A stretch of 35,522 bases of DNA from Terramyces sp. JEL0728. Its lineage: Eukaryota; Chytridiomycota; Chytridiomycetes; Rhizophydiales; Terramycetaceae. The first letter of the stretch is position 1, and each line of letters starts with the position of its first letter. The DNA is taken from positions 1 through 35,522 of the forward strand of contig JADIIU010000131.1 of the NCBI GenBank assembly GCA_027603945.1, written 5' to 3'. The notes under the pieces were generated by a model. That model did no database searches, was not told the origin of the DNA, and saw only the letters and a program-made list of their open reading frames with translations. A program made the translations under genes and the position numbers. Shown here piece by piece: positions 187 through 35,522 of the stretch.

Positions 187-988
187 TTATTGCAACTTTT
201 TGATTCCGGTTTCTTTGATGATTTTAGCTAAAATACGGTGCTTTTCTTCATTTTTCACAAGGGGAGACAAGTATCCACGTTTGCTTTCATCAGCATAAGT
301 CGCGATTAATCTTCTTGGTGGTAAAATCATTTCCGGAACTGAATGATAGTTTTTGCCATTCATCAAAGAGTGGATCCTTGTCTTGTCAAAGTAAACAGTT
401 GTAACTTTGCCGCCATGCTTTTCGATTGTTTTAATTGCATTTTCACTGGCTTTGTTACACTCAATATCTACTTTTGCATTAAAGAATTCAGCTCCCTAGG
501 TTAATACGAGTTACTTTTCCAAGCAATACAACCCCGTCTTTGATTTTACCACAGATTTTGCTATCCACCAATGCCTTCATTGTGATTTTCTTTGTAGGAT
601 CGATCCTCCCGACATTAATCCAGTGCTGCAGAGTATCCAGGGCCAAAGGCCGTAAATTCTGTCTGATATGCTTCAACCTAGAATAAAAACCCACTTACAT
701 TCCTCTGTTTTGCACACCAATCTTTGGGGTTTGTTCGACAATAGAAGTTTGACCACCAGTGAATGCGCGGTGAGGTTTTGCCTTGGAAGAGCGGTGTTTG
801 TACCCCTTTCTACCTCTTCCAGCAGTTCTACCTTTTCCTCCTCTTCCTACAACTTTTCTTTTTTTCTGTGCATTTTTGGGTAGCGTTACGTTGTTTAATG
901 TAAGAACTGATTTGAATCTCGTTTGAATTAGTGGTTTAAATATTGGTCTTGTAATTGGTCTGAATGCTAGTCGCAGGATTGAAAGCAT
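187..988 (-). CDS. MRPL10: Mitochondrial large-subunit ribosomal protein uL15m
   Basis: Mitochondrial ribosomal protein of the bacterial L15 family. The start at 988 gives a basic presequence-like N terminus (MLSILRLAFRPITRP). The family's Gly/Arg/Lys-rich loop follows (GRGGKGRTAGRGRKG), then GGQTS, the block GRIDPTKKITMKAL, then KDGVVLLGK. The gene is three exons: 699-988, 515-677 and 187-495, with introns at 678-698 (21 nt) and 496-514 (19 nt, GTAACTCGTATTAACCTAG). Removing the second intron joins DGVVLLGK to GAEFFNAKVDI and the family-typical stretch NKASENAIKTIEKHGGKV, which confirms the junction. The spliced product is 253 residues. The stop TAA is part of an AATAAA. Identity is well supported; the yeast name is used for the family only. 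Confidence 0.92.
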
Positions 989-1104
989 TCTGATTTTTTA
1001 TTTTTTTTCCAACCTTTGAAGAGCACCACTTATTCTATTGTGAAAGAGCAGATTCAATACCGGGCTACATTGCAGATTTCAAATTAAATGTGCCAGATAG
1101 ATAT

Positions 1105-1166
1105 CTCGCAAAGTAAATAGAATAATTCTCGCAAGTAAATAGAATAATTCTCGCAAAGTAAATAAG
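1105..1166. repeat. Tandem repeat, 22-23 bp unit, about 2.7 copies
   Basis: The unit CTCGCAAAGTAAATAGAATA (plus ATT) begins at 1105, 1128 and 1150. The middle copy lacks one A, and the third degenerates after GTAAATA. It lies between the uL15m start and the relic at 1201-1464. Nothing suggests a function; it reads as a recent local duplication in intergenic DNA. Confidence 0.8.
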
Positions 1167-1200
1167 ATTCCAATATTTACAAATCCAGAAAGTAGATCTG

Positions 1201-1464
1201 CTATGCTGGCATTATCAACGCGAAAATATACTGGAAGGTTATCCTTAATTGCTCCACCTTTGAAATGTATTCCTCAATCTCAACACCTTTTGTTTCACCA
1301 GGAAAGAAATCAGATGAGAAAATATACAACACGTGATAAGTTGCCAAAACGTTGTTGATATCACCTAGCTTTCCAAAAAATTCAACGATAATAAAGCGGA
1401 AATTACCTATACTTTCCTGCGTTATCGCTCGTTGAAGAACACAATTATTGTTGTTCCTATTGTG
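1201..1464 (-). pseudogene. Relic resembling the C-terminal half of an adaptin sigma subunit
   Basis: A minus-strand frame is open from 1464 to the stop at 1201-1203 and has no ATG. Its core, FFGKLGDINNV-(5 residues)-VLYI-(6)-PGET, has the same spacing as the sigma-adaptin segment containing FF, V, V, I and GE (FF at 1-2, V at 11 and 17, I at 20, GE at 28-29 of the block). The N-terminal half expected of a sigma chain (about 80 residues) is absent, because the next gene's start lies at 1559. No mini-intron pattern restores it. It is best read as a decayed fragment. The resemblance is by eye, so an unrelated small gene is possible. Confidence 0.33.
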
Positions 1465-1558
1465 CTATACCACAATAAGGACCCTACCATTGTTTCCAAG
1501 CCACTACCAGTAAAAAAACCCGCACAACTCAAAATTTTTTTCACTCTACAAATTTCAG

Positions 1559-2506: not shown

Positions 2507-3077
2507 ATTTAACTTTGCACTCAATAAATCGCTTTTAATTATTCCATTTTGTTTGTACTTGATTTAATTACAGAAGGCTCAATCATAGGTTCAGAATCCC
2601 CTTATAGAGATCTAAATCAAACGTGCTGTAAATCCAACTCAACTTTTGTTTCCGCTAAATCGCAATAGCTAATAGAATCTAGAAATGCGACTGCAAAATA
2701 TGGCGTAATGCATACCGGATCAACTTTGGCGGAGATTTATGAGTGTAAATCCAGAGATCAGCAAATGCAAAATATTCTCGCGTCATTTACATGTCATAAG
2801 TACACTATAGACTAATATCATATGGCGGTGATCGGCCACGTTTTTACACGCAATTACATATTGGAACTGTGAGATCCTTACCGGCAAATGTTAATTAAAT
2901 TTAAATCACGTTATGCCACGCTCCAATGAATGTATTAAACCACGTTCACTTGATACACATCGTATATTAAAATACGTCCATTAATCGTTCAGTGCTTGTT
3001 CCCCTGCTGATCCGTGCACTTTTATTTTTTCTTATTTTTTCCCAAATTATAAATAACGGGAGAATAATGGACTGGCA
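2507..3077. promoter_or_regulatory. Intergenic region with a CACG(T/C)T cluster
   Basis: About 570 bp with no supportable gene on either strand. AATAAA around 2522 probably ends the carrier transcript. Four copies of a CACGTT-like hexamer, (C/T)CACG(T/C)T, lie within about 110 bp, at 2836, 2906, 2916 and 2940, upstream of the gene at 3078. Clustering suggests, but does not prove, a transcription-factor site array. The last 80 bp are T-rich and lead into a TATA box. Confidence 0.3.
3048..3055 (+). promoter_or_regulatory. TATA box (TATAAATA)
   Basis: TATAAATA ends 22 nt before the ATG at 3078, after a T-rich run. If transcription starts 25-30 nt downstream of the box, as is usual, the 5' untranslated region would be almost absent. 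Confidence 0.5.
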
Positions 3078-3485
3078 ATGTTCAAATTACATGCAATTAA
3101 AAAAAAACTTTCCAAGGTATTCCGCAAAAACGAGGTGAATGAACCCGTCAAATCGTTACCTGTCGTATACTATGATCACGACCCCAGTCTCACTGACTCT
3201 AATCTAATTGATGATGATGTTATATCAGTTCATACTACAACGACAATTACCAGTCAAGATACACCTGATTACATTTACGCTCAGTATCATAGCATGCCGC
3301 GCATGAAACCTGCGAGCGATTTGACATTAAATCGAAAAACGTGTACTATGCCTAGGATGAATAGGAGTGCAGAGGTTAGGAAAGGCAGGTTTTTGGTTAG
3401 TTGCGAAAAGAGCTCTCTATGGTGTGCCAATATTGACAAGGGCCCTAGCAGGTTCCAGTATGTGGATGAAGTGGATTTACTCTAA
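3078..3485 (+). CDS. Small RF-motif protein, copy 1 (unknown function)
   Basis: A 135-residue intronless protein with no membrane segment. The N terminus is basic and possibly amphipathic (FKLHAIKKKLSKVFRK), the middle is acidic and Thr-rich, and the C terminus carries RKGRFLVSCEKSSLWCANI followed by PSRFQYVDE. The same C-terminal layout occurs in the gene at 31149 (KKGRFTM..EKSSLYYANIKKDKSRFEFVE), so the two are paralogues 28 kb apart. GRFLV fits RFx(V/I), the peptide bound by the CCT domain of SPAK/OSR1-type kinases. That link is inference from the short motif alone. The basic N terminus also aligns loosely (LKKLQKYFKK in copy 2). I do not recognise the family. The start is supported by the TATA box 23 nt upstream. 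Confidence 0.7.
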   Translation: MFKLHAIKKKLSKVFRKNEVNEPVKSLPVVYYDHDPSLTDSNLIDDDVISVHTTTTITSQDTPDYIYAQYHSMPRMKPASDLTLNRKTCTMPRMNRSAEVRKGRFLVSCEKSSLWCANIDKGPSRFQYVDEVDLL

Positions 3486-4367: not shown

Positions 4368-4525
4368 TAAAGAAACCTCGTACATCCATTTACATTGAGC
4401 TCTTACCTTGTGAATCACTGCACTGGAAACTAGTACAATTACTTGAAGGTTCCTACCAAGTCAACCATATTCACATGGCTCATTTGTTAGCCCCAATAAT
4501 TGAAAATTTCGTTATTCAAAAAATT

Positions 4526-5700
4526 ATGGTCTCCACTGACTGCCAGCTGTTTTATTCTACAATTTACCCAGCATTAACAAAAACCAATCCGCAACAGACC
4601 AGTTCATCTTGTTGCGGAATTGCTAACCTGAAATGCGACGGGCAACAGCGAATTACCCAAATTGATTACCACAACACGACTACACTCACTGGGTACATTC
4701 CACCAGAGATAGGACAATTGACACAACTTACGATTCTATTATTGTATCAAACCAATTTGCACGGTACTCTACCATCCTCAATTTCAAATTTAACCGGCCT
4801 TACCCAATTGGCACTTGGTGGAAACTCTTTTGTAGGCCCAATTCCACCAGAGTATGGGAATTTACAGCAACTCCAGCAATTGTACCTTGATGAAAACTTT
4901 TTGAATGGGACTATTCCTGATTCATTGGGACACATACCTGCTTTGCAAATATTGTATGTGAATGATAATCCAAATATTGTTGGTCCGCTACCTCCCTCTT
5001 TGAAAAATTTGAATACGAACACTACGCCAAAATTTGTTTACGACCAATCAGTACTCACAACCAACGTATCTTCTCTCACCACCACCTCACCAACTGCTTC
5101 AGCAGCACCAGTTGTTGACCCTTCAACACCATTCCCTACGAGCTCAATTATTATTATTGTGATTGCAATAGTAATATGTGCAATTGGAATGATCGGATTC
5201 GTCTTGTTTAGATTGAAAGCATCAAAAGTAAAGAAACTAGAAAGATTAAATTCGCAATCAACAGCAGTCGACCGTCAGGACTCTCCGCTTATAGCCGCAC
5301 CAATTGAATCGTTTTCTGACAGAGATAAACGCGTTTCCAAGACTATACAATTCGACCAAATTCAAACGGATAGGGGTAGCAAAGCTTACAGTTCGCTGTC
5401 AACCCCAATTGCGGATGTAAGCTGGCACTAATTGTAGATGAAGGATGAGTACCGCAAATCGCAACCGCCATTACTCTACGATCATGTTCATGATCCTTCT
5501 GGGATGAACCAGCCTAGAAACCCACTAGATGAACAAAAGGCAAGCGTTGCTAATTTTAGGATATTGTCCAATTAGCTACTGACCAGCCACCAATTATTGT
5601 TGAGATATCCACTGACCAGCCTCCAATATTATCCCAACCAAACGAATCTGGAAAAGTATCTCTGGAATCTGTTCAACCACCGGTGCTCCAACCATTCTAG
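4526..5700 (+). CDS. LRR single-pass membrane protein A with QPPIL tail
   Basis: First of four tandem LRR proteins; 377 residues in three exons: 4526-5416, 5438-5539, 5560-5700. Introns are 21 nt (5417-5437) and 20 nt (5540-5559, GCAAGCGTTGCTAATTTTAG, a GC-AG intron). The order is: N-terminal cap with DCQ, CCG and a third Cys (5-37), about four plant-type LRRs (54-161; IPPEIGQL, IPPEYGNL, IPDSLG, LPPSL), Thr/Ser/Pro stalk, membrane helix (about 207-229), basic stop-transfer, tail. The tail has SPLIAAPIES, AYSSLSTPI and four QPP copies (SQPPLLYD, DQPPIIVE, DQPPILSQ, VQPPVLQP), three of them only visible after splicing. The start is the ATG of MVSTDCQ, shared by B-D, although an in-frame ATG lies at 4475. 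The intron that B-D have after the cap is missing here. Probably a surface recognition or adhesion protein. Confidence 0.83.
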
Positions 5701-5906
5701 ATTAGAAATTACATGCCTGAATAAATTTGTTTTAATAAGGTGTATTACTTTATGGTACATGAAAAAGGCTTGTATGGATTATACCAGAAAGTCGGCAGAT
5801 CCAAAAGCTCAGAAGTCGGTAATTGTGGAAACTAGCCTTTGGCATAGTCTGGCATATGATATCACCATATCCGTCTACTCAAAGAATTTTCTGAATTTAT
5901 TTTTTC

Positions 5907-7311
5907 ATGGTTTCTCAGGACTGCCAATTATACTACAGCAAAATCTATCCAGCTATCAGCAACACTAGTCCGCAATCGTCAACTTCTACCTGCTGTACTA
6001 TTCCGCAACTTAAATGCGATGACCAGGATCGAATCACACAAATGTAGCCTTTATTAACTTAGCGATTTCCACCAGTCATCTTCGACGATCACTGGAGTGA
6101 TCCCGCCGGAAATTGGCCAGCTGAGTCAACTAACTATATTGCATTTGTACCAAAACAATCTGCATGGATCACTCCCTTCGTCAATCTCAAAATTAAGTTT
6201 ATTAACAGACTTGTCGCTAGGAGGAAATTCATTCGAAGGATCAATTCCACCAGAGTACGGAAACTTGAGCCAGTTGCAGTACTTTTATTTGGATGAAAAT
6301 AAGTTAACTGGGGCTGTACCGGATTCTCTGGGAAAGTTGCCTGCATTGATCAATCTCAAAGTTGAGAATAATTTGTTGACTGGACCATTACCGCCATCAC
6401 TGCAAAATTTAAATGCAAATACAAAACCGTATTTTACTTGTGATGGTTTTGTGCGAACATCTACTGGAACTGCTACTAATAATGTGACTGCAACTCAAAC
6501 ATCAGTGATTGTGACCCCGCCTTCATCGACAAACAACTCTGGTTTGATCATAGGAGTTGCGATTGCTGGGGTATTAATTTTGGCAGTCTTTGCAGCTGGA
6601 TTGCTTGTTGTTTATAGGAAATCTGGTAAAAAGAGACAATTGGAAAGACAGGATTCACAAGCAACATCAATCGAACAACGAAATTCACCTGTAGTCGTAA
6701 CTCCAGTAGAATCAACAGGTACTAGTTTTTAACAAAGGCATGTTGAGTTATCCTCCGAGTGAAACTAGTGAAGTTAGCGACCAGCTAAAGTATTTACCAT
6801 CTGAAGGATTCGATACGCATATAGAAAAGAAACTAAATCGGCATAGTCAGGAAAACAATAGATTCTCAAGAAACGTACAAGATTTTCGGTTCTCGAGAAA
6901 CTTGGATTACCAGCAAGATTATATGAATCCTGGCTATCAAAGCAATCAGTATTATCCAGTACAATACAATATGCCATATAGAGAAGAGTACCAGAATGAT
7001 CTGTACACGCCAAATATCTTGCACATCGATCCGAATAATAGAGCTAGTCAGGCGTATACTTCACTATCAACGCCTATTGAAGAGCACGGCGATTCTCTTG
7101 GTAGACAGCCGCCTATCCTCTACAATAACCCTTCAAACACTCTATCACAACTTCCAACAAATAATCAGGACAGTTACAACGGAGAGATGTTTGCTACACA
7201 GCCGCCGATCATACTTGCACCACAATCTGGCCAAGATGTAAGTAAATTTAACTGTAGACCAGTGAACAACCGCCAATCTTGATGAAAAGCTTTTCTAATA
7301 ATCGCCAGTAA
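5907..7311 (+). CDS. LRR single-pass membrane protein B with QPPIL tail
   Basis: Four exons: 5907-6043 (137 nt), 6063-6718, 6738-7237, 7258-7311; introns of 19 nt (6044-6062), 19 nt (6719-6737) and 20 nt (7238-7257, GTAAGTAAATTTAACTGTAG). The product is 448 residues: cap MVSQDCQLYY with CC and a third Cys, four LRRs with IPPEIGQL and IPPEYGNL, Thr-rich stalk, membrane helix GLIIGVAIAGVLILAVFAAG, long tail. The tail contains SPVVVTPVES, FDTHIEKKL (shared with D), QAYTSLSTPI (shared with A) and three QPP motifs (RQPPILYN, TQPPIILA, EQPPILMK). The last lies alone in the final exon. The stop is TAATAAA. There is no N-terminal signal peptide before DCQ, so membrane insertion would depend on the internal helix. 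Confidence 0.84.
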
Positions 7312-7467
7312 TAAAGTTTTATTTCATACGGCCGAGTCTTTGTTCTTGGCGTAAATATCGACCCAGTTAGTGAATATCAATGTTTATAACGCGTAAATTT
7401 GACAATACCATTGTTCTAGAACTCCGATGAAACCAAATCGTACCCAGAATAAATTTCATCCAAATAC

Positions 7468-8136
7468 ATGAATCCCGAGCCAAACCTAGTACAAATTAAA
7501 ACTGACGACACAATCGATGTGGTAACAAGAAAAAAGAATATTTTCCAAAAGGGGATTTCACAAGCTAAAAAAGGTGCAAAGAAATCAGTTAAAATCGCTG
7601 GAAATGTGCTGGAAGATTTTAAAGAATTTTTGAACAGAGGTAATGTAGTTGATTTGGCTGTTGGGGTCGTCATCGGTGCTTCGTTTACCGCTATCGTTAA
7701 CTCGCTCGTCAATGATATTTTTACACCAGCCATTTCATTAGCTCTTGGATCAGCCTCATTGGATAATGTGTTTATACTGCTGGCTTGTCCGCTGCTGAAT
7801 CCGAATATTTCAAATTCTGGAAGAGGCAAGGTCGGTAAGGACTGCTTCCAATACCAATACGCGACTGTTGCATTAGCTAAACAAGCCGGTGCTATTACGT
7901 GGAACTACGGCAGCTTCTTGCAACAGATTATCAATTTCCTTATAATCGCGATAATTGTATTTTTCCTTGTCAAAGTATACTCAGCAGCGTTTAGGAGAAA
8001 GAAGACAACAGCAGAAAAATATGGAAAGGAATGTCCTTACTGTTGTAAAGGTATCCCAATCAATGCAAAGAAATGCTGTTTCTGCACAGCCGACTTGGAA
8101 GATGGTGAACCAGAGGCTAGCGATTCAAAATCTTAA
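7468..8136 (+). CDS. mscL: MscL-type large-conductance mechanosensitive channel with C-terminal zinc ribbon
   Basis: Intronless, 222 residues. After a basic N-terminal extension of about 45 residues comes the MscL core: EDFKEFLNRGNVVDLAVGVVIGASFTAIVNSLVNDIFTP, i.e. the amphipathic S1 helix and the pore-lining Gly/Ala-rich first helix. A periplasm-type loop follows, and then TM2 (QQIINFLIIAIIVFFLVKVY). The C terminus has CPYC..GIP..AKKCCFC, a four-Cys zinc-ribbon module also seen on some bacterial MscL proteins. Homopentameric channels of this family open under membrane tension and release osmolytes on hypo-osmotic shock, a sensible need for a wall-less zoospore. It lies between LRR genes B and C on the same strand. 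A bacterial origin is possible but ancient, since its base composition matches its neighbours. Confidence 0.9.
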   Translation: MNPEPNLVQIKTDDTIDVVTRKKNIFQKGISQAKKGAKKSVKIAGNVLEDFKEFLNRGNVVDLAVGVVIGASFTAIVNSLVNDIFTPAISLALGSASLDNVFILLACPLLNPNISNSGRGKVGKDCFQYQYATVALAKQAGAITWNYGSFLQQIINFLIIAIIVFFLVKVYSAAFRRKKTTAEKYGKECPYCCKGIPINAKKCCFCTADLEDGEPEASDSKS

Positions 8137-8210
8137 TAAATCATCATTGAAATTTGCACAAGCCTAATTTCCATTTGGAATGTGAAGCCGCACTCTTTTT
8201 TTTCATAGAA

Positions 8211-9469
8211 ATGGTTTCGGCAGACTGCCAACTGTACTACAGCACAATCTATCCCGCCATAAGTAGTACTCAGCCGCAACAAACAACTGCAACCTGCTGT
8301 GGGACGGACCAAATTCAGTGCGACAGCCAGGATCGGATAACAACAATGTATTTGAATTTAATATAGTGATTTTCATCAAAATCCAGTAATCATCGGCTTC
8401 ATACCAAATGAAATCGGACAGCTGTCGAAATTAACTGTTTTGAGGTTGTATCAGAATAATTTGAATGGGAACCTGCCAGTATCAGTTGTAAATTTAACTT
8501 TGTTGACAGAGTTGACACTGAAGGGAAATTCGATTGTTGGAAATATTCCTCCAGAGTATGGAAGTTTTCAACAGCTTACTATAATGTCGTTGGAGAACAA
8601 TAGACTGACTGGAACTATTCCGGATTCGCTGGGGAAAATTACAACGTTAAAGACACTGCTGCTCCATAATAATCAATTAGTTGGACCTCTTCCGCCATCT
8701 CTACAGAATCTGAATATGTCTACTATCCCGCAATTTCATTGCGACGATGCAGTTCGGAACTATGTTGCACAGACTAATTTGACAAATAATGCAACTGGAG
8801 GAACCAATACACCCGGTAGCGGATCTATCAGTACCATATTAATAATATGTCTCGTATTGGCTGGTGTGGTATGCGTTGTTGCTGCTGGAGGGTTCTATTG
8901 GTACTGGAAGAAACCAGTTGAAATTAAAGCAAAAAAGATTGATGATTTAGATACCACTTCGATAGCTCCTTCTGAAGGAACATCCGTCACGCGTTCAGAA
9001 TCAACGGCAATTGTGTCCCCATCAGAACGCCTTCAAGGTAGCTGGTTTTAATGGTAGAATTTCCTCCGGATCCTGCTGAAGACAGGCTTAAAGACCTGAG
9101 GCAGCTGAGGAAAATGAATTCCTACCAGCCAGTGCCAAAAGAAGATCATGCTGCAGATAATCAACCATTGGTAATGAATGATCTACTTGTAATGACTAGT
9201 AGCCAGCCTCCAATTCTCGCGGAAAATTTGTCAGCTGTCGATAAAGAAAATATAACAAGGCAGGAAACAGTTCATGCACAGCCGCCTATTCTAGCAGAAG
9301 AACCGAGCTGCAACCAGGTATTTCAATTTTAATCAAGGACACACATGATAACTCTAATAGTCAGCCTCCCATTCTGCTGCAAGATTACGATCCAAAACCT
9401 TTTCTTGAGATTGGACAAAGTCAGCCGCCAATCATCTTATTACCTAACTCTGGTACCACAAGTAAATAA
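8211..9469 (+). CDS. LRR single-pass membrane protein C with QPPIL tail
   Basis: Four exons: 8211-8347 (137 nt, identical in length to B and D), 8367-9037, 9058-9317, 9338-9469; introns of 19 nt (8348-8366), 20 nt (9038-9057) and 20 nt (9318-9337, GTATTTCAATTTTAATCAAG). The product is 399 residues: cap MVSADCQLYY with CCG, four LRRs (IPNEIGQL, IPPEYGSF, IPDSLGK, LPPSLQN), stalk, membrane helix ILIICLVLAGVVCVVAAGG, tail. The tail lacks the SLSTPI block of A and B but has four QPP motifs (SQPPILAE, AQPPILAE, SQPPILLQ, SQPPIILL), the last two in the terminal exon. The stop overlaps AATAAA. The function is probably recognition or adhesion at the surface, with a motif-rich cytoplasmic tail. Confidence 0.83.
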
Positions 9470-9821
9470 AAGTTATATCCAATCTCTGTTTATTTGATAT
9501 AAACACAGCTTGTAATTACGGATGTTCACGCAAAAATTAGGGCAATCGTCACTGGAAGCCCTTGTGTTAACTGTGATTCAATTGGCTTCATGCATACATT
9601 TCTGGTCGCTTGGAGCCCAAAATTCTTTTATGTCGTATTCGAAACCACCATACTCAACCTGTCAATAAATAAACTTGCGGATCCCAATATCTAAATACTA
9701 CAAACCCCATATCCAATCCAACAATAGAAAATCCTTCCGACGGTGATTTAGTACTTTACTTTTTAGGAACTAAACGCAGGCTGAGTGTATATATAACAAA
9801 AAAATCACTTGAAAAAATCAG
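9470..9821. other. Intergenic spacer between LRR-C and LRR-D
   Basis: About 350 bp in which no convincing coding frame or RNA gene is seen. It holds the polyadenylation signal of LRR-C at its start and the LRR-D promoter at its end. Confidence 0.5.
9788..9796 (+). promoter_or_regulatory. TATA box (TATATATAA) of LRR-D
   Basis: TATATATAA ends 25 nt before the ATG of MVSQDCQ. This leaves no room for an upstream exon, so the protein really does begin at its Cys cap without a signal-peptide exon. Confidence 0.55.
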
Positions 9822-11195
9822 ATGGTTTCACAAGATTGTCAGCTATTCTATACTAAAATCTATCCAGCGTTGACTAATTCGCAACCGCAACAGCTCTCAA
9901 ATACTTGCTGTGGAATACCGCAGCTGACTTGTGATAGCCAAGACAGAATTACTCAAATGTACGGTTTGCTAATGTAGTGATTTTCATCAAATGCCAACTT
10001 TATTAAGCGGGACTATCCCTACTGAAATTGGGCAGTTGGCCCAGCTCGCCGTGCTTCACTTGTACCAAAACGATTTGGGAGGTACATTGCCCTCTTCGAT
10101 ATCCAAATTATCACTCTTGGCAGACTTGTCGTTAGGCGGTAATGGAATTAAAGGCAGTATACCATCAGAATACGGAAACCTAAATAAGCTTTCTGTAATG
10201 TATTTGGATTCAAATCAATTGACAGGAGCTATCCCTGGCTCGTTGGGTAAATTGCCTGCAATAACTATCTTGTCTATGCATGCCAACAAGTTATCAGGTC
10301 CACTACCTGCATCCCTACAGAACTTGAACGCAAATACTACACCGCAATTTACATGCGATGATAGTGTTAGAAATTCTGTCTCACCAAATACCACTATCAA
10401 TGTCGGTCCAGCGAATACTGGCACTAGTAATAACAATAACGGGTCGGGTAACCAAGTTGACAGCACTGCAGGATCGCAAAACTCTGGGTTAATAATTGGT
10501 GTTACAGTTGGTGTTGCCTTATGCGTGGTTATTGCAGTTGGCTTATTCTTATTTTGGAGAAACAGCAACAGAAAGAAACGACAAAGAGACTCGGAAATTA
10601 CAATCAAGGAATCACCAGTAATCGTTACACCGATCCAAGAAAGAGCCTCTTTTGGTAATTTGGTGTTTATTTAGATTTTCCAGTTCAAAAACAGCAGAAT
10701 ATTTACAAGGAATTGCCAGATCCAAATCCAATTGATCCCTACAAGCAAAATCTGTATTCAAACAGAGACGCTTTTCAAAATGATCCGTTTTCTGAAGGAG
10801 ACACGGTGCTAATGGATCTGTTTTCTAGACGAGATACTGATCCTCTCGAATACAGGGATACAATCATTGAAGACAATCAGCAAAAATATCTCGCTGAAGA
10901 CAGCTTTGACGCACACATTGAGCGCAAATTATACGAAGATTTCAGAGGCTCCAGATTAGAACCGATTGGCAGAAATTCCAGCTCGTACCAACAAAGATAC
11001 ACCGGAGAGTATCGCGGTGATCAAGCTAGATTTGCACTTCCAGGTATTAGAGATAGCGGACCAGCTAGTACTCTGTTTACACCTATAGTGCAAGTAATTT
11101 AGTATTAATTTTAGACTGTTGATGCAGAAAGTACAACTTCTAGGCAACCGCCAATTCTGCTCTACAATCCCAAGCAAAACCAACGTAATAAATAA
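9822..11195 (+). CDS. LRR single-pass membrane protein D with QPPIL tail
   Basis: Four exons: 9822-9958 (137 nt), 9978-10654, 10675-11093, 11115-11195; introns of 19 nt (9959-9977, GTACGGTTTGCTAATGTAG), 20 nt (10655-10674) and 21 nt (11094-11114). The product is 437 residues: cap MVSQDCQLFY with CCG, four LRRs (IPTEIGQL, IPSEYGNL, IPGSLGKL, LPASLQN), Asn/Gly/Thr stalk, membrane helix GLIIGVTVGVALCVVIAVGL, tail. The tail carries SPVIVTPIQE, FDAHIERKL (shared with B), STLFTPI (degenerate form of SLSTPI) and one QPP motif, RQPPILLY, encoded in the last exon. Intron positions match B and C exactly, so the three arose by duplication after those introns existed. The stop lies in AATAAA. Confidence 0.84.
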
Positions 11196-11290
11196 ATTGT
11201 TATCGCGTAAATAATGACCGACTTTTTCCTTATTGGCACTGCTAACGGATAGAATGCTAGTGTTGTTATACTTGTGGATCACGAATTTAT

Positions 11291-12513
11291 TTAGTAAAAA
11301 CCCAGGTACCAAGAAATGTTGTAGATGAGCCAGTCAAATATCATGTAAGCCATGTTTGACCAAGACATCATACTACGAAAATTGTTTGCCAACTCATTGG
11401 CACTAGCCACGTTGACGAATTTATGAAGATTGCCGTCAGATTCTTTTGCAGCTCTTCTTGCTCTGCTCCACATGTACTTTTTCTCAAACAATTCAATTTC
11501 TCTGCCCACAGGAATGTTGCGTTTGAGTGCATTTATAAGCGCTTTTGCCAAGTCCGCTCCGTCGGCCAAAGCTAGATTGGCACCTTCGCCTGCAAATGGT
11601 GACATGCTAGGTTAGTTATATCCTACACATGCGCAGCATCTCCAATAAGCGTTACGTTTGACTTCCATGATTCGTCTCTCGTCCATCTTGTATCGATTGG
11701 CAGAGCGTATATCTGTCGCTTAGTGGAAGGATAGTTGCCCAATTTGGTCAAATCCTTATTCCATCCTCGAAGGAAAGCTGGCCCTTGGCCTTCATTGAGA
11801 TCATTTGGGTCACATTTTCTTGCAACATAGATACGTGATACATCTCCAATATGGCCCATTAATAAAGTTCCTTTGTTATCTGCTGCCCATAGAGTACCCT
11901 TTTTTAAACCTGCAGTGTCCGAGCCTTTTGGCAGGATAGAGTCAAGTAAAGCTACACCAGTGTAGGAAGGCTTCAAATCAGTAAGTACCGGACGTACTTT
12001 GGACCAAGCTCCGTCAGCCCCAACTACGATATCCGCGTACTGTGTCGTTCCATCGGCAAATACAAGCCCAATCTTCCTATTATCAGCCGGCTTTTCAACA
12101 CTGGAGAGTTTATAGCCCCATCGGATAACTTTCGGATCAATCGCGTTAATCAGCAAGTTTCGAAGCTCAGTTCTTTCAATTTCGGGTCTAGACCCATCAC
12201 CCGGGTCAGAATACAGCAGAGTACCATCGGAATCTCTAATTTCATGTCCATCCATTGCGTCATGTACTTTTGCGAGAAATTCCTTGTACAGATTTGCTTC
12301 TTTTAATGCTCTTTGCCCAGTTTCGCGATGTAAATCGAGATATCCTCCTTGTCCGCGATGATTCTTGTCTTTTTCTGCTTCGTAAACTACAACGTTATAG
12401 CCTTGATGAAGTGTGAGTATCCTTGCTAGTACTAATCCTGCTGGGCCCGCTCCAATAACTGCGACTGTTTGAGATTCAGTCATTTTGAATTTTTTAGGAA
12501 TATTCGTCACCAT
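11291..12513 (-). CDS. FAD-dependent monooxygenase (TetX/PHBH-like fold)
   Basis: Two exons, 11627-12513 and 11291-11606, around a 20-nt intron (GTAGGATATAACTAACCTAG, 11607-11626) that splits the conserved second FAD motif. Splicing gives GDAAHVMSPFAGEGANLALADG without a gap, strong proof of the intron. The N-terminal dinucleotide motif is VIGAGPAGLVLARIL. A GGYLDLHRETGQRAL block, typical of TetX-like hydroxylases, and VVGADGAWSKVR follow. The product is 400 residues, normal for the family, using flavin and NAD(P)H to hydroxylate a small molecule; the substrate is unknown. The start may be 12513 or the ATG at 12483. The C terminus is aromatic (YMIFDWLIYNISWYLGFY) and may touch membrane. Its stop abuts AATAAA. 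Acquisition from bacteria is possible; the intron and composition show adaptation to this genome. Confidence 0.87.
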
Positions 12514-17010: not shown

Positions 17011-17707
<697 letters not shown>

Positions 17708-23188: not shown

Positions 23189-24027
23189 AAATAAAAGATA
23201 CAATAACGCCAGAGAATAGGCCCTTCCAATAGAAATGGTTTTCCCATAGCTGGCCGAACCAATTCATTAAGGTAGAGGCAGTTGTAAGCTCGATTGGCTG
23301 GACCTCTTCAACTGCAGGTTTTGGAGCAAGCATCTTCTTTATCATTTCATGGTCGTCCACAGATGATTGATGGACTATTGCCACCACATCCCTGAATAAT
23401 TTTTCCTTCTTTCTCGGTTCAACTACAAATTGAATTAATAGAAACAGGATTAAATGTGTGGTGATCAGCCCTATTGTCCAGTAGGTAGAAGCCTGGCGGA
23501 TCTTGTCAGAGTACATTTGCTCCTCCACGTACCTCTCCCTGATTTCACTACATTAGCATAGAGTACGATAAATAGTCATTCTGTGCCCGTTCATACTGCT
23601 CTGTGCTCGTCTTGTACATTTCCTTGGCTTGTTTTTCTTGCTTGTCTAGAGACAAGGACAATCTATACAGTTCAGTAATCCTGGTGATATCCGCATCTGA
23701 AAGTGAATTCTTTCTATCTCTTAACGAATCTAAATCTTGCTGGCATTTCCTTCTTTCGTCAATCAGGTCTTCGTAACGCAGCTTTGATTTTAAAAAATCG
23801 TCCTTCTTTTGTTGCAGTTGCAGGTCCTTTTGAAGCACGCTGTTTTTCCGTCGTTCTACGTGGTGATAGCCAGTGATTATGTTCAGCTGGTTTGCAATAT
23901 CTGTCACTGAGGTGCCCGACATTATGGATTTCTGCTTTTCTATTAACGGCTCAGTGAATTTCCTTATATAACTTTGAATTGGGAACTGTTTTAAATTTCG
24001 TTGCACCACACTGATTCTTGCCCACAT
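23169..24027 (-). CDS. SHE9: She9/Mdm33 mitochondrial inner-membrane protein
   Basis: Two exons, 23567-24027 and 23169-23547, around a 19-nt intron (GTACTCTATGCTAATGTAG); 279 residues. The chosen ATG (24027) gives a basic presequence (MWARISVVQRNLKQFPIQSYIRK); the frame upstream has only a TTG. Then come INQLN/ITGY near the start of the family domain, a long coiled coil, DITRITELYRLSLSLDKQEKQAKE, and across the splice ERYVEEQMYSDKIRQASTYWTIGLI, the She9 hallmark before the first membrane helix. A second hydrophobic segment ends the protein (YWKGLFSGVIVSFIFKLL). She9/Mdm33 is a fungal inner-membrane protein governing mitochondrial shape and fission. It is divergent from NAP1 with 32 bp between start codons. 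Confidence 0.9.
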
Positions 24028-24059: not shown

Positions 24060-25145
24060 ATGTCTGACCAAGAAGAAATAACCACCGACGGTGCTGCTGC
24101 TTTCCACAATCCAGCCGCTATCAGCACCCTTCAAGTAAATTTATTTAACCCCAGAGTAGAATGGCTTCGATGATTGGCCAATCCTCCGGCTACATTGCTA
24201 CTTTACCACAAGACGTTCGCAACCGAATCAATGCTTTGAAAAATATCTCAAAAAAGAACCAAGACATTGAGTACCAATTTGAGAAGGAACTTTTGGAATT
24301 GGAAAAGAAATATCTTGCCCTTCATCAGCCAATTTATGATCAGCGTCACCTTATTATCACCGGAGGTTACGAACCAACTGAAGAAGAATGCCAACGCACT
24401 GAAGAAGAGCAGGATGATTTACCACCTGCTCCAGAAGGTGCAGAACCACAAACCGGTATCCCACAGTTCTGGCTTACCGTCCTATTAAATGTACCTGGAA
24501 TTGCAGACACTATTACTGAAGAAGATCAAGAAGCTTTGAAACACTTGGTTGATATTAGAACCTCTTATTTGGAAGGAAACCCGGGTTTCCAATTGGAGTT
24601 TGTCTTTACTGAAAACGAATTCTTTACAAACAAAGTACTTTACAAGAAATATTTCTTGGAAGAACCGGATAACAACTATGATCATGCCGAAGGGTAATTT
24701 GTTATTAATCCAGAACCACAGTCAACTGGAAAGACGACAAGGATTTGAGCGTCAGAGTTGAAGTCAAAAAACAAAGACATAAAGCAACAAACAAGACTAG
24801 AACTGTGAAAAAGACTGTTCCAGTTGATACTTTCTTTAATTTCTTCAAACCACCAAAAGTCCCAGAAGATGAAGAAGAAGCTGAGGATATTGACTTTTCC
24901 TCTTTCGAAATGGACTATGACATGGGTGAAATGATCAAAGAAAAAGTCATCCCTGATGCCGTCAACTGGTTCACTGGAGAAGCTTTGGAAGAATACAACG
25001 AAGAAGAAGACGATGAAGGCTACGATGAGTTTGATGACGATGATGAAATTGACGACGACGATGGTACGCTTGTTTTAATTTAGATGATGAAGATGGTGCT
25101 CCTGCAGGTAATGTTGACAAGGCACCTGAATGCAAGCAACAATAA
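24060..25145 (+). CDS. NAP1: Nucleosome assembly protein 1
   Basis: Four exons: 24060-24134, 24155-24693, 24714-25063, 25084-25145; three 20-nt introns (24135-24154 GTAAATTTATTTAACCCCAG; 24694-24713 GTAATTTGTTATTAATCCAG; 25064-25083 GTACGCTTGTTTTAATTTAG). Each junction restores a NAP1 motif: LQSRMASMIGQSSGYIATLP; YDHAEGTTVNWKDDKDLSVRVEVKKQRHK; DDDD|DEDGAPAGN. The order is short acidic N terminus, dimerisation helix (FEKELLELEKKY), core domain (IPQFWLTVLLNV, FTENEFFTNKVL), FFNFF, then the acidic tail. It ends in CKQQ, a CaaX-type prenylation box as in other NAP1 proteins. It is a histone H2A-H2B chaperone that shuttles between cytoplasm and nucleus. The stop is inside CAATAAA. Confidence 0.95.
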
Positions 25146-25295: not shown

Positions 25296-26719
25296 ATGGA
25301 CCACGCTCCAATACCAAATACAGAAAATGATAAGCGCACCGATTTGCCCTTCAACACGATGCTTACGTTATGCATAGTGTTACTGTCGGAACCAATATCT
25401 TCCACGATCCTATTCCCATTCGTGTACTTTATGGTCAAAGATTTTGGAATTAAAGAACAAGATATTGGGTTTTACGTTGGATTTGTATCTAGTTCGTATT
25501 TCTTTGCGCAATTGCTTACTAGTGTCTTTTGGGGGTACTTTTCAGACAGATGTGGAAGGCGACCAGCTTTGTTGATTGGATTGGTTGGAAATACCATTAC
25601 CATGTTGATGTTTGGAATTAGTACGTCATTGGCCTTTGCAATTGTCAGTCGAACAGCCTGTGGTTTACTTAATGGAAATATCGGGGTAGCAAAAAGTGTG
25701 CTTGGAGAAATCACGGATAACACTAATAGAGCAGCAGCATTTAGCATTATAGGTATTTTTGACTGATGCCAGGCCTTACGTATGGCGTTGGGACTATAAT
25801 TGGGCCTGCAATCGGCGGGATTCTCTCAAATCCAAATGAAAACCTCCCATTTCTGTTTGGCAATAATCGGTTCCTTGCCCAATACCCATATTTTTTACCA
25901 TGTGCACTAAGCGCGCTAATTTCAATCGTAGGTTACTTGTTTGGAAGTTTCTACCTCCCAGAAACATGCAAAAATGTAGGAGGATACCAAGTAATAAGTC
26001 CAGATACATCCGCAGACACAGTAGCGCTGGATGAAGCCGAATTTGAGCCGATTGCAATAGAAGAGACTGGATTTGGAATGAATGCTCTATTTGTAGCTTT
26101 GACGTATGCAGCACTCGCATTTCATGATATTATTTTTGTGGAAATATTTCCTTTATGGGCTGTAGCAAAGCCAGGAATTGGATTAGGGTTTGATGGTGCT
26201 CAGATTGGCATTTGCTTATCAGTTGTAGGAGTATTCACTCTGGTTTGTGCCATTTTCCTGTATCCCTCCATTGCGAAGCGTACAACTAGCTTGACAATAT
26301 TCAGAGTGTCATCTGCACTATTTGTACTAATTTCACCAGTATTCCCATTAATATCTACCTACATCTCGCCTGCAAACAACGGGATTTACTTATGGGCAGC
26401 GTTATTGTTGGTGCTTGGGATCCGCTCAATGATTGAAAACTTTGCATATACCTCAGTAATGATTTTGGTACATTTAAATTGATGGTAGGTTAGTTTGTCA
26501 GCAAAGCCGGGGCAATTGGGGAGAGTTAACGGACTAGCCCAGAGTCTGGCGTCATTTGCAAGATCAGTAGGGCCAGCTCTTGGAGGAACGATATGGGCAT
26601 GGTCATGCCAAAATAGCCTCCCTTTTCCACTGAACCATATATTTGTGTTTACGTGTATCGTCGGAATTGCAGCGATTGTCACACTTCAGTCTTTCCATCT
26701 CTCTGGATTTGACGAATGA
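25296..26719 (+). CDS. Major facilitator superfamily transporter, 12 helices
   Basis: Three exons, 25296-25752, 25773-26467 and 26489-26719, 460 residues. The introns are 20 nt (25753-25772, GTATTTTTGACTGATGCCAG) and 21 nt (26468-26488). The MFS loop signature is WGYFSDRCGRRPAL between helices 2 and 3. The first splice yields GLTYGVGTIIGPAIGG (helix 5 motif C); the second gives MILVSLSAKPGQLGRVNGLAQSLASFARSVGPALGG, the second-half motif. The hydrophilic loop between helices 6 and 7 is short. The sequence type resembles the fungal YCR023C / plant zinc-induced-facilitator-like group, probably an H+ antiporter; the substrate is unknown. Helix 12 ends FHLSGFDE. Confidence 0.88.
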
Positions 26720-26869: not shown

Positions 26870-27556
26870 TTACCCTAAATAGTGATAAATCAGCCCCATT
26901 ATTATTGTAGATGCAATAATCCCTCCAATCAAGATGTAAAAATCACTGGCACTTCGCTGTTCAATGAATCTGATAACATTGCTGGATAATCCCATGTTAT
27001 TTGCTGCATCTAATAATCGCTTTTGAGTGGACTGGTTAGTTTCAAATTACTTTAAGCATTGACCGTTGGTCGTATAAATCTGATAGCGCATTCCTCCCAA
27101 TTTTCAAATATTCGTCAACACTGGTCTCTGCTGCTCCTAGTCTGCCATCAACATCAAAATCCAAAATCGTCGACTCTGTTTTCCTATTGGTCTTGTATTA
27201 ACACTAAATACCATTTGGTTTCCAAGCAACTCTTGTCGCTGCATATCATGTATTTTTTGTTGCGTTTGTTTTATAGCATCGCTCTCGCTGCGAATCTGCT
27301 GGATATCTTTTCGCAACTCTGCTACTCGCCTTTGTTAGATTCAATTACTGTACCCATTAATCATTTCCCTCTTTGCTGCCACCACTTCTCTCTTTCCCAG
27401 CGAATTTAGCTCTGTTGCCAAATGCTCTAACTGGGCTGTTCCTGAAATTATTCTTGAAAATGTTTGTTGCGAGTATGTAGTTGAAAGCGATTGTAAATCC
27501 TGGAATAATTCGGATTTTAGTTTGAAGGCATTGGAATAGATAATTGCCTGCGACAT
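26870..27556 (-). CDS. BOS1: ER-Golgi Qb-SNARE of the Bos1/membrin type
   Basis: Four exons (27354-27556, 27212-27329, 27051-27191, 26870-27031); 207 residues, close to human GOSR2. The introns are 24 nt (27330-27353), 20 nt (27192-27211) and 19 nt (27032-27050, GTAATTTGAAACTAACCAG). The order is N-terminal helices (MSQAIIYSNAFKLKSELFQD), the central region with REMING..VAELRKDIQQI and QELLGNQ, then the SNARE motif ending DQRSMLKSTQKRLLDAANNMGLSSNVIRFIEQR. A C-terminal anchor, DFYILIGGIIASTIIMGLIY, follows. The last two splices run through conserved SNARE positions and leave no doubt about frame. It mediates fusion of ER-derived vesicles with the Golgi. The start is the first in-frame ATG. 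The stop is TAATAAA. Confidence 0.9.
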
Positions 27557-29535: not shown

Positions 29536-29547
29536 TAACGAAAGCAG

Positions 29548-30433
29548 TTAGAAATTGCCAAAAGAGTGGTTGACTGAAGGATACCCTGAAGCCATTCCAA
29601 AAGGTACAAACTGATTCTTGAGTACATCTTGCTCATTGCTCAACCCAACAATCCACCCCAAGTTGCGCTTTAATTCATCTAACGCTTCTTTAAACCCAAA
29701 TCTACAATTGATTTCAGTACAGTGAAGGGAGAGGATATGGATCCATTCGCCAACAATATGAGAACCAAATACTTTGCCTATATTAGTACATTGTACCCTC
29801 TTCATTGACTTTTCTGCTGATTTCAGAAACAACGATTCGCCAGTGTCTTCCTAATCTCTCATAAATATAATCCTTGAATTCATTGTTGCTTTCAGTATTC
29901 CAAATAGGTAATTTATGTACGAGTGAGGTTGCCATGTGAAGGTATCCGAACGCATCACCAGCATATTCATGCTCTAAAGTGGCAGGGTATGATTGTGGTA
30001 GTGTAAAAAAATCCAAAAACTGAATGATAGATTTTTGCAATTCTTCTAGCACTGGTCTGACTCTATTAAAAGAGTAATCGCTTCTATCTGGACCAAACTT
30101 GGAATACGGCATTTGATCAAATACATTTTTAGCCATGTTTGATAGAATTGTAGTGGTGTTGGCAAGTGTCGGTCTTGGCAACAGTTCAGTAATAGAGTTT
30201 TCCAGATTCGGGTTGGATGAAACCAAGTTGCTGATGATTGAAATCAGTTGTTCCTTTTCAAGTGCTTGTAAAAGGTCTGGAAGCAACTGTAAAACTGTAT
30301 TTGATTTTGAAGGAGAAGAGTTTTCTTTTGACAGTTGCCAGCGGATTCGCTTTGGTGTGAGGACTATTGGGGGCGACTCTGCATCATAGTAGTTCTTTCT
30401 CTTTCTATTGACTGGAGTGGTTGCAATTTCCAT
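29548..30433 (-). CDS. STS1: Sts1/Cut8 nuclear proteasome tether
   Basis: Two exons, 29797-30433 and 29548-29777, with a 19-nt intron (GTACAATGTACTAATATAG); 288 residues. The N terminus is basic (NRKRKNY, TPKRIRW) with KR-type nuclear signals. The Cut8 core then shows QLLPDLLQALEKEQLISII, LLPRPT, FDQMPYSKFGPDRSDYSFNRV, and HMATSLVHKLPIW. The splice supplies EEGKVFGSHIVGEWIHILS and LKRNLGWIVGL, the conserved end of the family fold. Cut8/Sts1 anchors 26S proteasomes at the nucleus, and its turnover feeds back on proteasome level. Identification is by the ordered motifs, several near-invariant. Confidence 0.88.
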
Positions 30434-33165: not shown

Positions 33166-33426
33166 TTTTTGATGGAAGAATTTTTTGCTTGTCAGAATTA
33201 TTCATAAATTGGCAGGCTTTATTGCGCTGTTGAACGGCTATTCAATGCTTTTTCGCATTAAAGAACAGATATCTCTCGCTTGCATCTCCCGGCTTTAGTA
33301 TATCTGCAAATCAGTGCCAGATAATTTGGCTGTTGAGTAATATTAAAGTAGAGCAGGAAATTCAATATCTACGAAAAGATAGACCTCGAGATTATTCGTT
33401 GGCTGTATTTGACTTTGAAAGCAAAA

Positions 33427-34628
33427 ATGAAGGAATGGAATCACAGAAACCACTTTTTTATATTTTCAAATGCTGGAAAGCCAATATACACTAGATACGG
33501 TGACGAAATAGACCAATCAGATCTCATGTGTCTAATCCTCTCCTTCCTCTCCTTTTACAAATCCGATCCACTTCAAACTATAAAAACAGTTGATAGGACA
33601 ATAGTGTTTACAGATTGTGGACCGCTGATCATATGCGCAGTCAGCAAGCTACCACCAACCTACATTAAATTCCAACTAAACCTTGTGAAAAATCAATTGA
33701 TTTCGTTCTTTACACTTCCGCAATTGGTTAAAATTTATCAAAATGCACCTACTTTGGATGCAAGGAGTATGATTGACTCGCATTTGATTGACTTGATTAT
33801 CAAAGAAAAATGCTGGTTCGAGAGCGTTGGCGTAGTGAATTTTAGGGATAAGGGTAAAGTCAAAAAGATTATGGAAGGAGTTTGCTGTTTACTGTTTTGG
33901 CACAAGAAGTTGATTGCATTCAAATCAAAGGTATTTTCTTACTTATTTAAGGTGTCTAAATTCTTAATCCAGGTAATCGGCGTGCTAAAAAGATCAATCT
34001 CAGTCCGAACGATATAAAGTTGCTGGTTAACCTAGCGTACTCGTCTTCCAATTTCAAGTCAATAGAATCATGGTCGCCAATATGCTTGCCTGAATTCAAT
34101 GAAACAGGATTCCTGTACGCGTATATTCACTTTATCAAAGACTTTTGTTTAGTTACATTGTCAACTGACAAGAATGCATTCTCAAGCCAATCCGAATTAA
34201 AGAACAGTTTGAATTCCGTATTGGAAAATGTAGATTTAAAACAAAAGAGCATAGTAGAATTAGGTTAGTCACGATTAACGCGTAGGTTCCTCATTATCTT
34301 AATCATAGGTATCTGTCTCATCTAACTAATAATAGGGATCCCAAATCTAAGACACGTCCTGATTCAAAACACAAAGACGAAAACGCACTTTGAACCAGCA
34401 CCGATCCCGCCATACACGAAACGAAAGGAGCTGAAAGAATTGTACAAAAAGTACATTAAAAAGATCAACTACACAAACACTGGGAAAGAGGTGATTATTA
34501 TCCTTCAGAGAAAGGAAATTGTCATTTACAGCTGCTTTAGTCCAACTGTAAAGAAAGAGAATCTTGGGTTCTATGAAGATCAGCTGTTTGAGATTGCAGA
34601 GAATTGCCAAGATTTGTTTAAAGTATAA
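33427..34628 (+). CDS. MON1: Mon1 vacuolar/endosomal Rab7 activator subunit
   Basis: Three exons, 33427-33930, 33993-34263 and 34336-34628, 355 residues. Longin 1 opens at once: EWNHRNHFFIFSNAGKPIYTRYGDE, then TDCGPLIICAVS. The first splice gives KLIAFKSK|INLSPNDIKLLVNL, matching the family's R-P-K-x-S-L-x-P-x-D-L-x-L-L. Then comes ESWSPICLPEFNETGFLYAYI. The second splice gives VELG|IPNLRHVLIQ, the GIPxLRHFxY motif, and the protein ends CQDLFKV. Mon1 with Ccz1 forms the nucleotide-exchange factor that loads Rab7/Ypt7 at late endosomes. The usual disordered N-terminal extension is missing; an upstream exon cannot be excluded. Both introns are odd (62 and 72 nt, each built of three units). Confidence 0.9.
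33931..33992 (+). other. Composite intron 1 of MON1 (21+21+20 nt units)
   Basis: Homology requires removal of exactly 62 nt. The segment parses into three abutting intron-like units: 33931-33951, 33952-33972 and 33973-33992 (GTAATCGGCGTGCTAAAAAG). Each starts GT and ends AG, and the last two have the TTAATC..AG / GCTAA..AG endings seen in single introns here. The internal joins are AG|GT. It can be one 62-nt intron or three excised in turn. Confidence 0.6.
34264..34335 (+). other. Composite intron 2 of MON1 (22+23+27 nt units)
   Basis: Homology (VELG|IPNLRH) requires removal of exactly 72 nt. It parses into 34264-34285, 34286-34308 and 34309-34335, each beginning GT and ending TAG after TTAAC, TTAATC or CTAACTAAT. 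Again the joins are AG|GT. The same architecture twice in one gene argues against coincidence. Confidence 0.62.
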
Positions 34629-34660
34629 ATTTATTGTTTAAAGTATAAATTTATTGTTTA
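34621..34660. repeat. Exact 20-bp tandem duplication at the end of MON1
   Basis: AAGTATAAATTTATTGTTTA occurs twice, back to back; the first copy contains the MON1 stop codon. The unit length equals that of the mini-introns. It is probably a recent slippage product in the 3' flank. Confidence 0.85.
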
Positions 34661-34928
34661 TAGTTTGCAGTTTATCAGTACTATCGGTGTCTGATTTCGC
34701 TGTGCAATGTGTCGGCATATTGGGTAAAATACCTGATAGAAGATTTGCCCGACCTCTGCACCATCTTTGGTCAGTCCTGAAAGATTCTGGACTCGAATAA
34801 TCCCGCTGTGTAGCTTCTCCAACTACCACAAATTGCAGTCAAGCATCGCATGCCCAACAATTATCCAGTCATCTATTTTTTCTTTCCGTAATGAAAATCT
34901 CATTCAAGAATCTACAACAAGAGTAAAA

Positions 34929-35522
34929 ATGGCTAACAACAGATCGTTTTCGATTGAAGCGGAAGGGACAGACTCTGTAGAGAAATTAAAAGAATTGATC
35001 CACCAAGCCAAAGGATACGAACCTAGCCTGCAAAAACTTATCTTGAAAGGAAAGATTTTGACTGATTCACAACTAATTTCTGCAATTGGATATGGAGATA
35101 AGGATTTCGTAGTGGTTATGGTCTCTAAGGTAACTTTAGTTTAACCAAAGCCTAAAACCACTCCTGCTAACCCTGTCACAAGCCAAGCTGCCCCAGTTGC
35201 CATTCCATCAACACCAGCTCCTGTCCAGTCTACAGTACCAGTGCAATCTACTCCTGGCGCTCAACCAAATGCACCAACAGGAGATACTGCGATGGTTACT
35301 GGAAGCGCATATGAAACGTCGGTAGCCAATTTAATGGAAATGGGTTATCCAAGGGATCAAGTTGTAGCTGCATTAAGGGCTGCGTTCAACAATCCAGATA
35401 GAGCAGCTGAATATTTATTTACTGTATGCATTTCTAACTCAGGGAATTCCAGAATCTGCACAAGTTCCAGCAGAATCTACTCCACCAGCTGCTGCACAAC
35501 CACAACCAGCGCAACCTCAACA
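34929..35522 (+). CDS. RAD23: Rad23 ubiquitin receptor (N-terminal part, cut by window end)
   Basis: Exons 34929-35129, 35151-35423 and 35443 to the window edge, with introns of 21 nt (35130-35150) and 19 nt (GTATGCATTTCTAACTCAG, 35424-35442). The ubiquitin-like domain ([21 protein letters not shown] ... [13 protein letters not shown] end [11 protein letters not shown]) is joined by the first splice to a Pro/Thr/Ala linker (PKTTPANPV). UBA1 follows ([37 protein letters not shown]), completed by the second splice to [10 protein letters not shown]. The XPC-binding domain and UBA2 lie beyond the window. Rad23 carries ubiquitylated substrates to the proteasome and supports nucleotide-excision repair with Rad4. 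Confidence 0.93.

Follow-up and report, generated by a model that had tools for sequence, protein, structure and literature searches.

Predicted U2-type spliceosomal introns, mainly of 19–21 nucleotides, in the chytrid fungus Terramyces sp. JEL0728

Short Introns in the Window

The window is a stretch of 35,522 nucleotides (nt) of Terramyces sp. JEL0728, contig JADIIU010000131.1 (C131 in our numbering) of assembly GCA_027603945.1, which comprises 15.0 Mb in 231 contigs. The genes of this stretch are interrupted by very small inserts, which are almost certainly U2-type spliceosomal introns of this chytrid fungus, with a main class of 19–21 nt. By sequence, the introns follow one plan: a GTA donor, a YTAAY motif (Y, pyrimidine) whose A occupies +14, +15, or +16, and a (T/C/A)AG acceptor 4–7 nt behind that A. 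A sequence-only reading of the window had proposed spliceosomal-type introns of 18–21 nt used genome-wide, and the enrichment and frame tests described below support this for 19–21 nt. The same reading called the genome fungus-like; Terramyces sp. JEL0728 is a true fungus (Terramycetaceae, Rhizophydiales, Chytridiomycota). The ADP/ATP carrier at 1559–2506 shows 96% identity with a protein of Boothiomyces sp. JEL0838.

Thirty-eight introns were placed in the window via frame restoration, homology, or both, and 36 of them are 18–24 nt long: one of 18 nt, 13 of 19 nt, 16 of 20 nt, five of 21 nt, and one of 24 nt. The other two are 61 and 72 nt. The earlier count was 41 (1, 14, 17, 5, and 1 in the same length classes, plus three of 61–72 nt); the length pattern was reproduced with 38 introns re-placed, but only two long ones were recovered. 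The third long intron was not found, with MON1 and the TMEM216-like gene only partly modelled, and a 42-nt MON1 stretch (33931–33972) was left outside the census.

GTA is the donor in 36 of the 38 introns, with one GTT (the 72-nt insert) and one GC-AG intron (5540–5559). YTRAY-N(0-4)-AG (R, purine) is present in 33 of the 36 short introns, so that the proposed GTA start and fused branch site and acceptor hold; in the remaining three, YTRAY is replaced by TTTAT (678 and 10655) or CTAAA (14101). On the model of other fungi, the latter of the two A residues in YTAAY is assigned as the branch A, which puts it at +14, +15, or +16. Among the 33 short introns with the motif it lies at +14 in 21, at +15 in 11, and at +19 in one, and it is followed by 4 nt in two introns, 5 nt in 19, and 6 nt in 12. 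A distance of 4–8 nt to the 3' end had been predicted; the values found, 4–6 nt in the window and at most 7 nt in the larger sample described below, fall within it.

A motif scan of the window lists 32 of the 36 short introns. With flanks of 75 nt, 28 of these 32 open the reading frame solely once spliced. Two (starting at 9318 and 35424) are open both spliced and unspliced, and two (7238 and 16076) are closed in both states and rest on whole-gene models. The interval 3422–3440 also passes the scan (64 rows), yet it is not counted as an intron; the scan by itself is no proof.

Restoration of Conserved Proteins

Removing the inserts restores conserved proteins. The clearest case in the window is YPT6 on the minus strand, with introns at 17352–17370 (19 nt), 17444–17462 (19 nt), 17550–17567 (18 nt), and 17627–17646 (20 nt). 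The spliced protein of 206 residues aligns to Rab6 (2y8e_A) with 328.9 bits and without a gap over residues 3–175, and all four junctions (residues 94, 70, 41, and 21, respectively) are inside this alignment. Among the 120 matches listed for the spliced YPT6, none exceeds 86% identity, although an intact model from the same strain would rank first; public gene models in this group may therefore be broken in some cases.

For NAP1 (plus strand; 24135–24154, 24694–24713, and 25064–25083, each 20 nt), the spliced model is identical at 341 of 341 residues to the public protein HDV01_001333 of Terramyces sp. JEL0728 across all three introns, and therefore at least some 20-nt introns are already in the public annotation. 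The junction of the second NAP1 intron (residue 206) is within the NAP match (48–294).

Pfam matches span the junctions of several further genes. In the FAD monooxygenase (11607–11626, minus strand, 20 nt) the junction at residue 287 is inside the FAD_binding_3 match, which rises from 42 bits for the main open reading frame (ORF) to 75.4 bits for the spliced protein. In SHE9 (23548–23566, minus strand, 19 nt) residue 156 is within the She9_MDM33 match (40–216), and in STS1/Cut8 (29778–29796, minus strand, 19 nt) the junction near residue 211 is within the Cut8 match (8–250). Both introns of the MFS transporter on the plus strand, 25753–25772 (20 nt, CTGAT branch site) and 26468–26488 (21 nt, TTGAT branch site), have their junctions (residues 153 and 385) within the MFS_1 match (25–413). 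One of the three BOS1 introns on the minus strand, 27032–27050 (19 nt; residue 155), is within the V-SNARE_C match (124–180); the other two, 27192–27211 (20 nt) and 27330–27353 (24 nt, the outlier with its branch A at +19), were placed by motif scan and translation. The two RAD23 junctions on the plus strand are just outside the domain matches: residue 68 of 35130–35150 (21 nt) is one residue past the ubiquitin match (3–67), and residue 159 of 35424–35442 (19 nt) is just past the UBA match (121–156). RAD23 rests on the reading frame and on presumed homology.

Outside the window, the modelled stretch of Prp8 (contig C31) has four introns of 19, 22, 21, and 21 nt. Three of them are inside a gapless match of 262 residues (556.3 bits to 6zym_A, 555.8 bits to hPrp8), and the first was placed by its presumed likeness to Prp8 sequence. 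The modelled stretch of U2AF65 also carries four introns, over two of which RRM1 is continuous in a match to a solved structure. Against the family model, U2AF65 scores 251.7 bits when the unspliced genome is read through stops and 334 bits after splicing, which exceeds the cut-off of 310.3 bits.

In other genes of the window the frame itself is informative. Splicing of the gene called uL15m in the sequence-only reading (minus strand; 496–514, 19 nt, and 678–698, 21 nt with TTTAT for YTRAY) gives 253 amino acids (aa) with both introns removed, against 102 unspliced. The gene called a PH protein there, whose main ORF has no Pfam match, grows from 571 to 746 aa without its 20-nt intron (18499–18518, minus strand). 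NRDE2 (NRDE-2 domain) has the 61-nt intron (21092–21152, plus strand), with a GTAAGT donor and a 3' structure as in the short introns, and its removal extends the protein from 494 to 717 aa.

Introns of the Surface Genes

Four leucine-rich repeat (LRR) paralogues, A to D, on the plus strand offer a comparison within the window. At one shared site, genes B (6044–6062), C, and D carry 19-nt introns of unlike sequence and gene A has no insert. The residues at this site are RITQIDYH in unspliced A and RITQIDFH, RITTIDFH, and RITQIDFH in spliced B, C, and D. An alignment of the four paralogues hid the empty site by spreading the gap, and the point rests on the translations.

Gene A contains 5417–5437 (21 nt), found by the motif scan and the census, and the 20-nt GC-AG intron at 5540–5559, which has the usual branch site and whose removal restores the QPPI-repeat tail. 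Gene B also has 6719–6737 (19 nt; motif scan and translation) and, in its tail, 7238–7257 (20 nt), which has a short last exon and is closed both ways with the 75-nt flanks. In gene C, 8348–8366 (19 nt) and 9038–9057 (20 nt) were placed by motif scan and translation, and 9318–9337 (20 nt), in the tail, by translation. Gene D has 9959–9977 (19 nt; motif scan and translation), 10655–10674 (20 nt, TTTAT for YTRAY), and 11094–11114 (21 nt; motif scan and gene model), and removing all three lengthens the protein from 233 to 436 aa.

Another five surface-gene introns are on the minus strand. Those at 15253–15271 (19 nt), 15990–16009 (20 nt), and 16168–16186 (19 nt) were placed by motif scan and gene model, that at 16076–16095 (20 nt) by the gene model, and that at 14101–14120 (20 nt, CTAAA for YTRAY) from the sequence.

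The tandem LRR family occupies 4476–11200, and by eye its proteins have one hydrophobic membrane stretch and QPPI(L/I)-repeat tails. Several introns of the family adjoin these repeats.

Enrichment Beyond Chance

In a sample of 235,522 bases, comprising the window and 20 stretches of 10 kb, each on a separate contig, the distances separating GTA, YTAAY, and AG were counted for either strand. The 19-nt form (GTA-N7-YTAAY-N2-AG) has 66 matches, against a mean of 2.8 per length at 40–120 nt, and its neighbouring cells have 40 and 30. Cells with 3–6 or 10–29 bases from GTA to YTAAY have 0 to 6 matches each. In the same table a slight peak is seen for the GTG donor and none for GTC. When donors are counted against expectation, GTA stands at 157 versus 10.9, GTG at 18 versus 9.1, and GTT at 22 versus 13.7, while the sample has no surplus of GC donors (GCA, 8 versus 13.1). 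The trinucleotides GGT, AGT, and TAA are also above expectation, which is taken as GTA read one base off.

Genome-wide, the 19-nt form has 3315 matches versus 274 for the reversed-pattern control. The 22-nt form, with 10 bases from GTA to CTAAC and thus one past the widest core spacing, has 24 matches versus 65 for its reversed control. When the net 3041 matches are scaled by the share of this form among the core candidates defined below (66 of 189), about 8,700 YTAAY introns are estimated for the genome. The sample is somewhat richer than the genome, as 66 matches in 235.5 kb predict about 4,200 of the 19-nt form.

In a test that requires no branch motif, any GT..AG gap of 10–130 nt with 150 nt of coding-like sequence on either side was counted in the sample and compared with six other dinucleotide pairs. 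A clear excess was found only at 19 (77 versus 34.0), 20 (108 versus 38.2), and 21 nt (27 versus 5.0). The high background is thought to come from antisense frames, which are often open. In the 53 GTA introns of 19 nt from this set, positions 11–15 read YTAAY although this was not required, with T at +12 in 83% and A at +13 and +14 in 70% and 85%, respectively. YTRAY precedes AG in 42 of 76 matches of 19 nt, 49 of 108 of 20 nt, and 11 of 27 of 21 nt. Net of background, about 70% of the excess has YTRAY, and the remainder has variants such as CTTAT, GTAAT, and TTTAT.

Frame Restoration and Consensus

Core candidates were defined as sample matches with a GTA–YTAAY spacing of 7–9 bases and 1–3 bases before AG (189, of which 186 have full flanks). 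The frame is open over 120 bases on each side in 123 of the 186 when spliced versus 15 when unspliced. When the 3' cut is moved by 1, 2, or 3 bases, 27, 23, and 119 frames are open, respectively. Among 116 controls with wider spacing, 31 are open spliced and 20 unspliced, and among 16 with narrower spacing the numbers are two and three.

The consensus was taken from the 111 core introns that open the frame only when spliced, for which GTA and YTAAY had been required beforehand. Their lengths are 18 (1), 19 (50), 20 (47), 21 (9), and 22 nt (4). Beyond GTA, the donor prefers A at +4 (52%), T at +5 (44%, with G in just 22%), and T at +6 (54%), and the commonest donor hexamer is GTAATT (15 of 111). 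The acceptors are TAG (70), CAG (26), AAG (13), and GAG (2). Phases 0, 1, and 2 are represented by 54, 32, and 24 of the 110 core introns with one open frame.

Spliceosomal Components and a Possible Mode of Recognition

The genome encodes a U2 small nuclear RNA (snRNA; 140.2 bits) with GUAGUA intact, to which the YTAAY motif is complementary, as well as Prp8, SF1, U2AF65, Isy1, and Cwc25. U2AF65 is full-length with both RRMs, and its C-terminus, read by eye, carries what is presumably a UHM. SF1, likewise read by eye, has what we take to be the Trp-bearing N-terminal motif, the KH region, and the zinc knuckles. The start of Cwc25 keeps the Gly-rich MGGG plug (MGGGDLNLKKSWHP). Cwc25 was found with equal score (53.7 bits) and equal open-frame length on contigs C30 and C33, perhaps as two alleles or a duplication. 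The earlier hint that U2AF, SF1/BBP, or Prp8 might be lost or changed was not borne out: SF1, Prp8, and U2AF65, which was the part of U2AF looked at, appear ordinary by sequence.

The fixed positions are consistent with a spliceosome that reads the intron as one unit, fitting two fixed distances, from the 5' splice site to the branch site and from the branch site to AG. SF1 and then U2 would bind the YTAAY motif, and the 5' site, read by U1 and then U6, would almost adjoin it, leaving few bases between the helices. Given the place of the branch A, almost no gap would remain between the 5' site and the branch helix. The lariat would have a loop of about 14–15 nt and a tail of 5–6 nt. Intron length would be set by the two rulers, so that one short set of motifs would define the whole intron. 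Behind the branch site a pyrimidine tract would not fit, so that U2AF65, which is retained, would have to act on the U-rich sequence that separates the donor from the branch site, or through SF1 and U2AF35.

Evaluation of the Interpretation

Several observations weigh against U2-type introns of a main 19–21-nt class. The public NAP1 model could have been predicted ab initio. A single window intron is 24 nt long with its branch A at +19. The motif-free test has small unexplained bumps at 48 (19 versus 11.0) and 57 nt (27 versus 12.0), and about 30% of its excess lacks YTRAY in place (109 of 211 matches, with an expected background of about 77). U1 snRNA was not found in the genome by limited searches with few candidates scored, nor was U6 snRNA by limited searches that included two pattern searches without a usable result; both absences are weak.

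Two near-identical stretches, L009:1501-1606 (contig C199) and L010:1501-1605 (contig C111), gave weak U6-like matches of 27.4 and 26.9 bits. They contain ACAGAGAA, yet they differ over much of the U6 core, and they are not called U6. The sole match of one U6 pattern search is by eye coding-like and has no Rfam match.

The short introns could be real but a minor class, most introns being longer and missed. The two longer window introns (61 and 72 nt) and 57 sample matches of 30–130 nt with GTA and YTAAY-AG would fit this, as would the motif-free bumps. However, several of the 30–130-nt matches, among those listed, are by eye a short intron plus a false upstream donor, and no length from 22 to 130 nt has a motif-free excess comparable to that at 19–21 nt. 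This possibility is considered very unlikely.

It is slightly less probable still that the inserts are removed in another way, by DNA elimination as in ciliates or by ribosomal bypassing of the mRNA. The inserts are known here from DNA sequence, which leaves room for either process, but both the GT-AG ends and YTAAY agree with a spliceosome, whose core parts are encoded. No fungus is known to eliminate DNA in the manner of ciliates, which counts against elimination. Sequencing or assembly errors that broke the frames, with a pattern read into the breaks, might be suspected in a draft of 231 contigs, but they have a negligible probability, as the breaks share one narrow set of lengths, GT/AG ends, and a consistently placed branch motif, the 19-nt form outnumbers its reversed pattern genome-wide by 3315 to 274, frame restoration is lost when the 3' cut is off by one base or two, and LRR paralogue A lacks an insert that is found in B, C, and D at the same site.

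Adjoining Mini-Introns and Other Features of the Window

The 72-nt MON1 insert (34264–34335, plus strand; gene name from the sequence-only reading) has a GTT donor and appears by eye as three abutting GT..AG units of 22, 23, and 27 nt. At L031:3842-3884, on another contig, an insert reads as two abutting mini-introns of 22 and 21 nt, both of which must be removed to open the frame. A search for such arrangements gave two cases, too few for a rate, and one of them is ambiguous, as it opens with the first unit alone; the search did not flag the MON1 insert.

A bacterial-type large-conductance mechanosensitive channel, MscL, is encoded at 7453–8136 in one frame of 227 aa (PF01741, 119.1 bits). 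Short direct repeats are visible by eye at 1100–1165 and 34618–34660 in apparently intergenic DNA.

Comparison with Known Tiny Introns

In the sections of PMC9505925 used here, the ciliate Stentor coeruleus is described as having introns of 15–16 nt (8806 annotated), with the branch A at the 10th base in 90.90% of all introns and at the 11th in 5.02%. Terramyces resembles Stentor in its one tiny intron class, the fixed place of the branch A, the GU-AG ends, and the U2 snRNA with GUAGUA; the commonest Stentor intron starts with GUAAUU, the commonest donor hexamer in Terramyces. U2AF2 and U2AF1 are listed as present in Stentor. In contrast, the Stentor introns are about 4 nt shorter and have a weak branch consensus, whereas that of Terramyces is strong, and the Gly-rich plug motif of Cwc25, reported in those sections as lost in Stentor along with a changed N-terminus of Isy1, is intact in Terramyces. 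Blepharisma introns are described as predominantly 15 and 16 nt.

The nucleomorph of Bigelowiella natans has introns given as 19 nt in PMC2483917 and as mostly 18–20 nt in PMC5014332, and shares the length band and a relatively high intron density with Terramyces. It is a relict algal nucleus, and the relevant part of PMC2483917 gives no branch-point signature and little past GT(A) at the 5' end, in contrast to the strong branch motif of Terramyces. Yarrowia, Giardia, and Trichomonas resemble Terramyces in having a branch site at a fixed short distance from AG and no 3' pyrimidine tract, as far as that part of PMC2483917 goes; they are intron-poor, whereas the introns of Terramyces are estimated to number thousands and have a second ruler, which extends to the 5' site. 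Cryptococcus neoformans is also a fungus with short introns, but these average 56 nt, and according to the portion of PMC11913375 used, those below 40 nt are few and poorly spliced, unlike the main 19–21-nt class of Terramyces.

The portion of PMC2483917 used reports that short-intron lineages lack a branch signature and that intron-poor lineages tend to have strong signals. Terramyces has one dominant class within about 15–21 nt (among lengths to 130 nt), and its branch signature is not degenerate. In combining introns that are both short and numerous with a strong signal, it runs against that rule. At least as regards the Cwc25 plug, it also runs against the conjecture, in the sections of PMC9505925 used, that ties tiny introns to altered branching factors.

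Searches of one open-access library, several of them with queries too broad to conclude from, listed no report of introns of this kind in chytrids or in any other fungus. On balance, Terramyces and its kin would seem to be the first fungi with a standard intron of 19–21 nt. They would also be the first lineage with ultra-short introns to have kept a strong, fixed branch motif with otherwise ordinary SF1-U2AF-Cwc25 machinery. If so, a degenerate branch site and a stripped spliceosome are both dispensable for tiny introns, and longer introns such as those of 43 and 72 nt may in some cases be mini-introns joined head to tail, with no intervening exon. In such a genome, gene finders and aligners that accept no intron of 20 nt or less would leave many genes broken. 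The intron size of ciliates and the nucleomorph is now seen in a fungus, whose well-marked branch site lets the geometry of the substrate be read from the genome, and the smallest substrate for a normal spliceosome becomes open to direct experiment.

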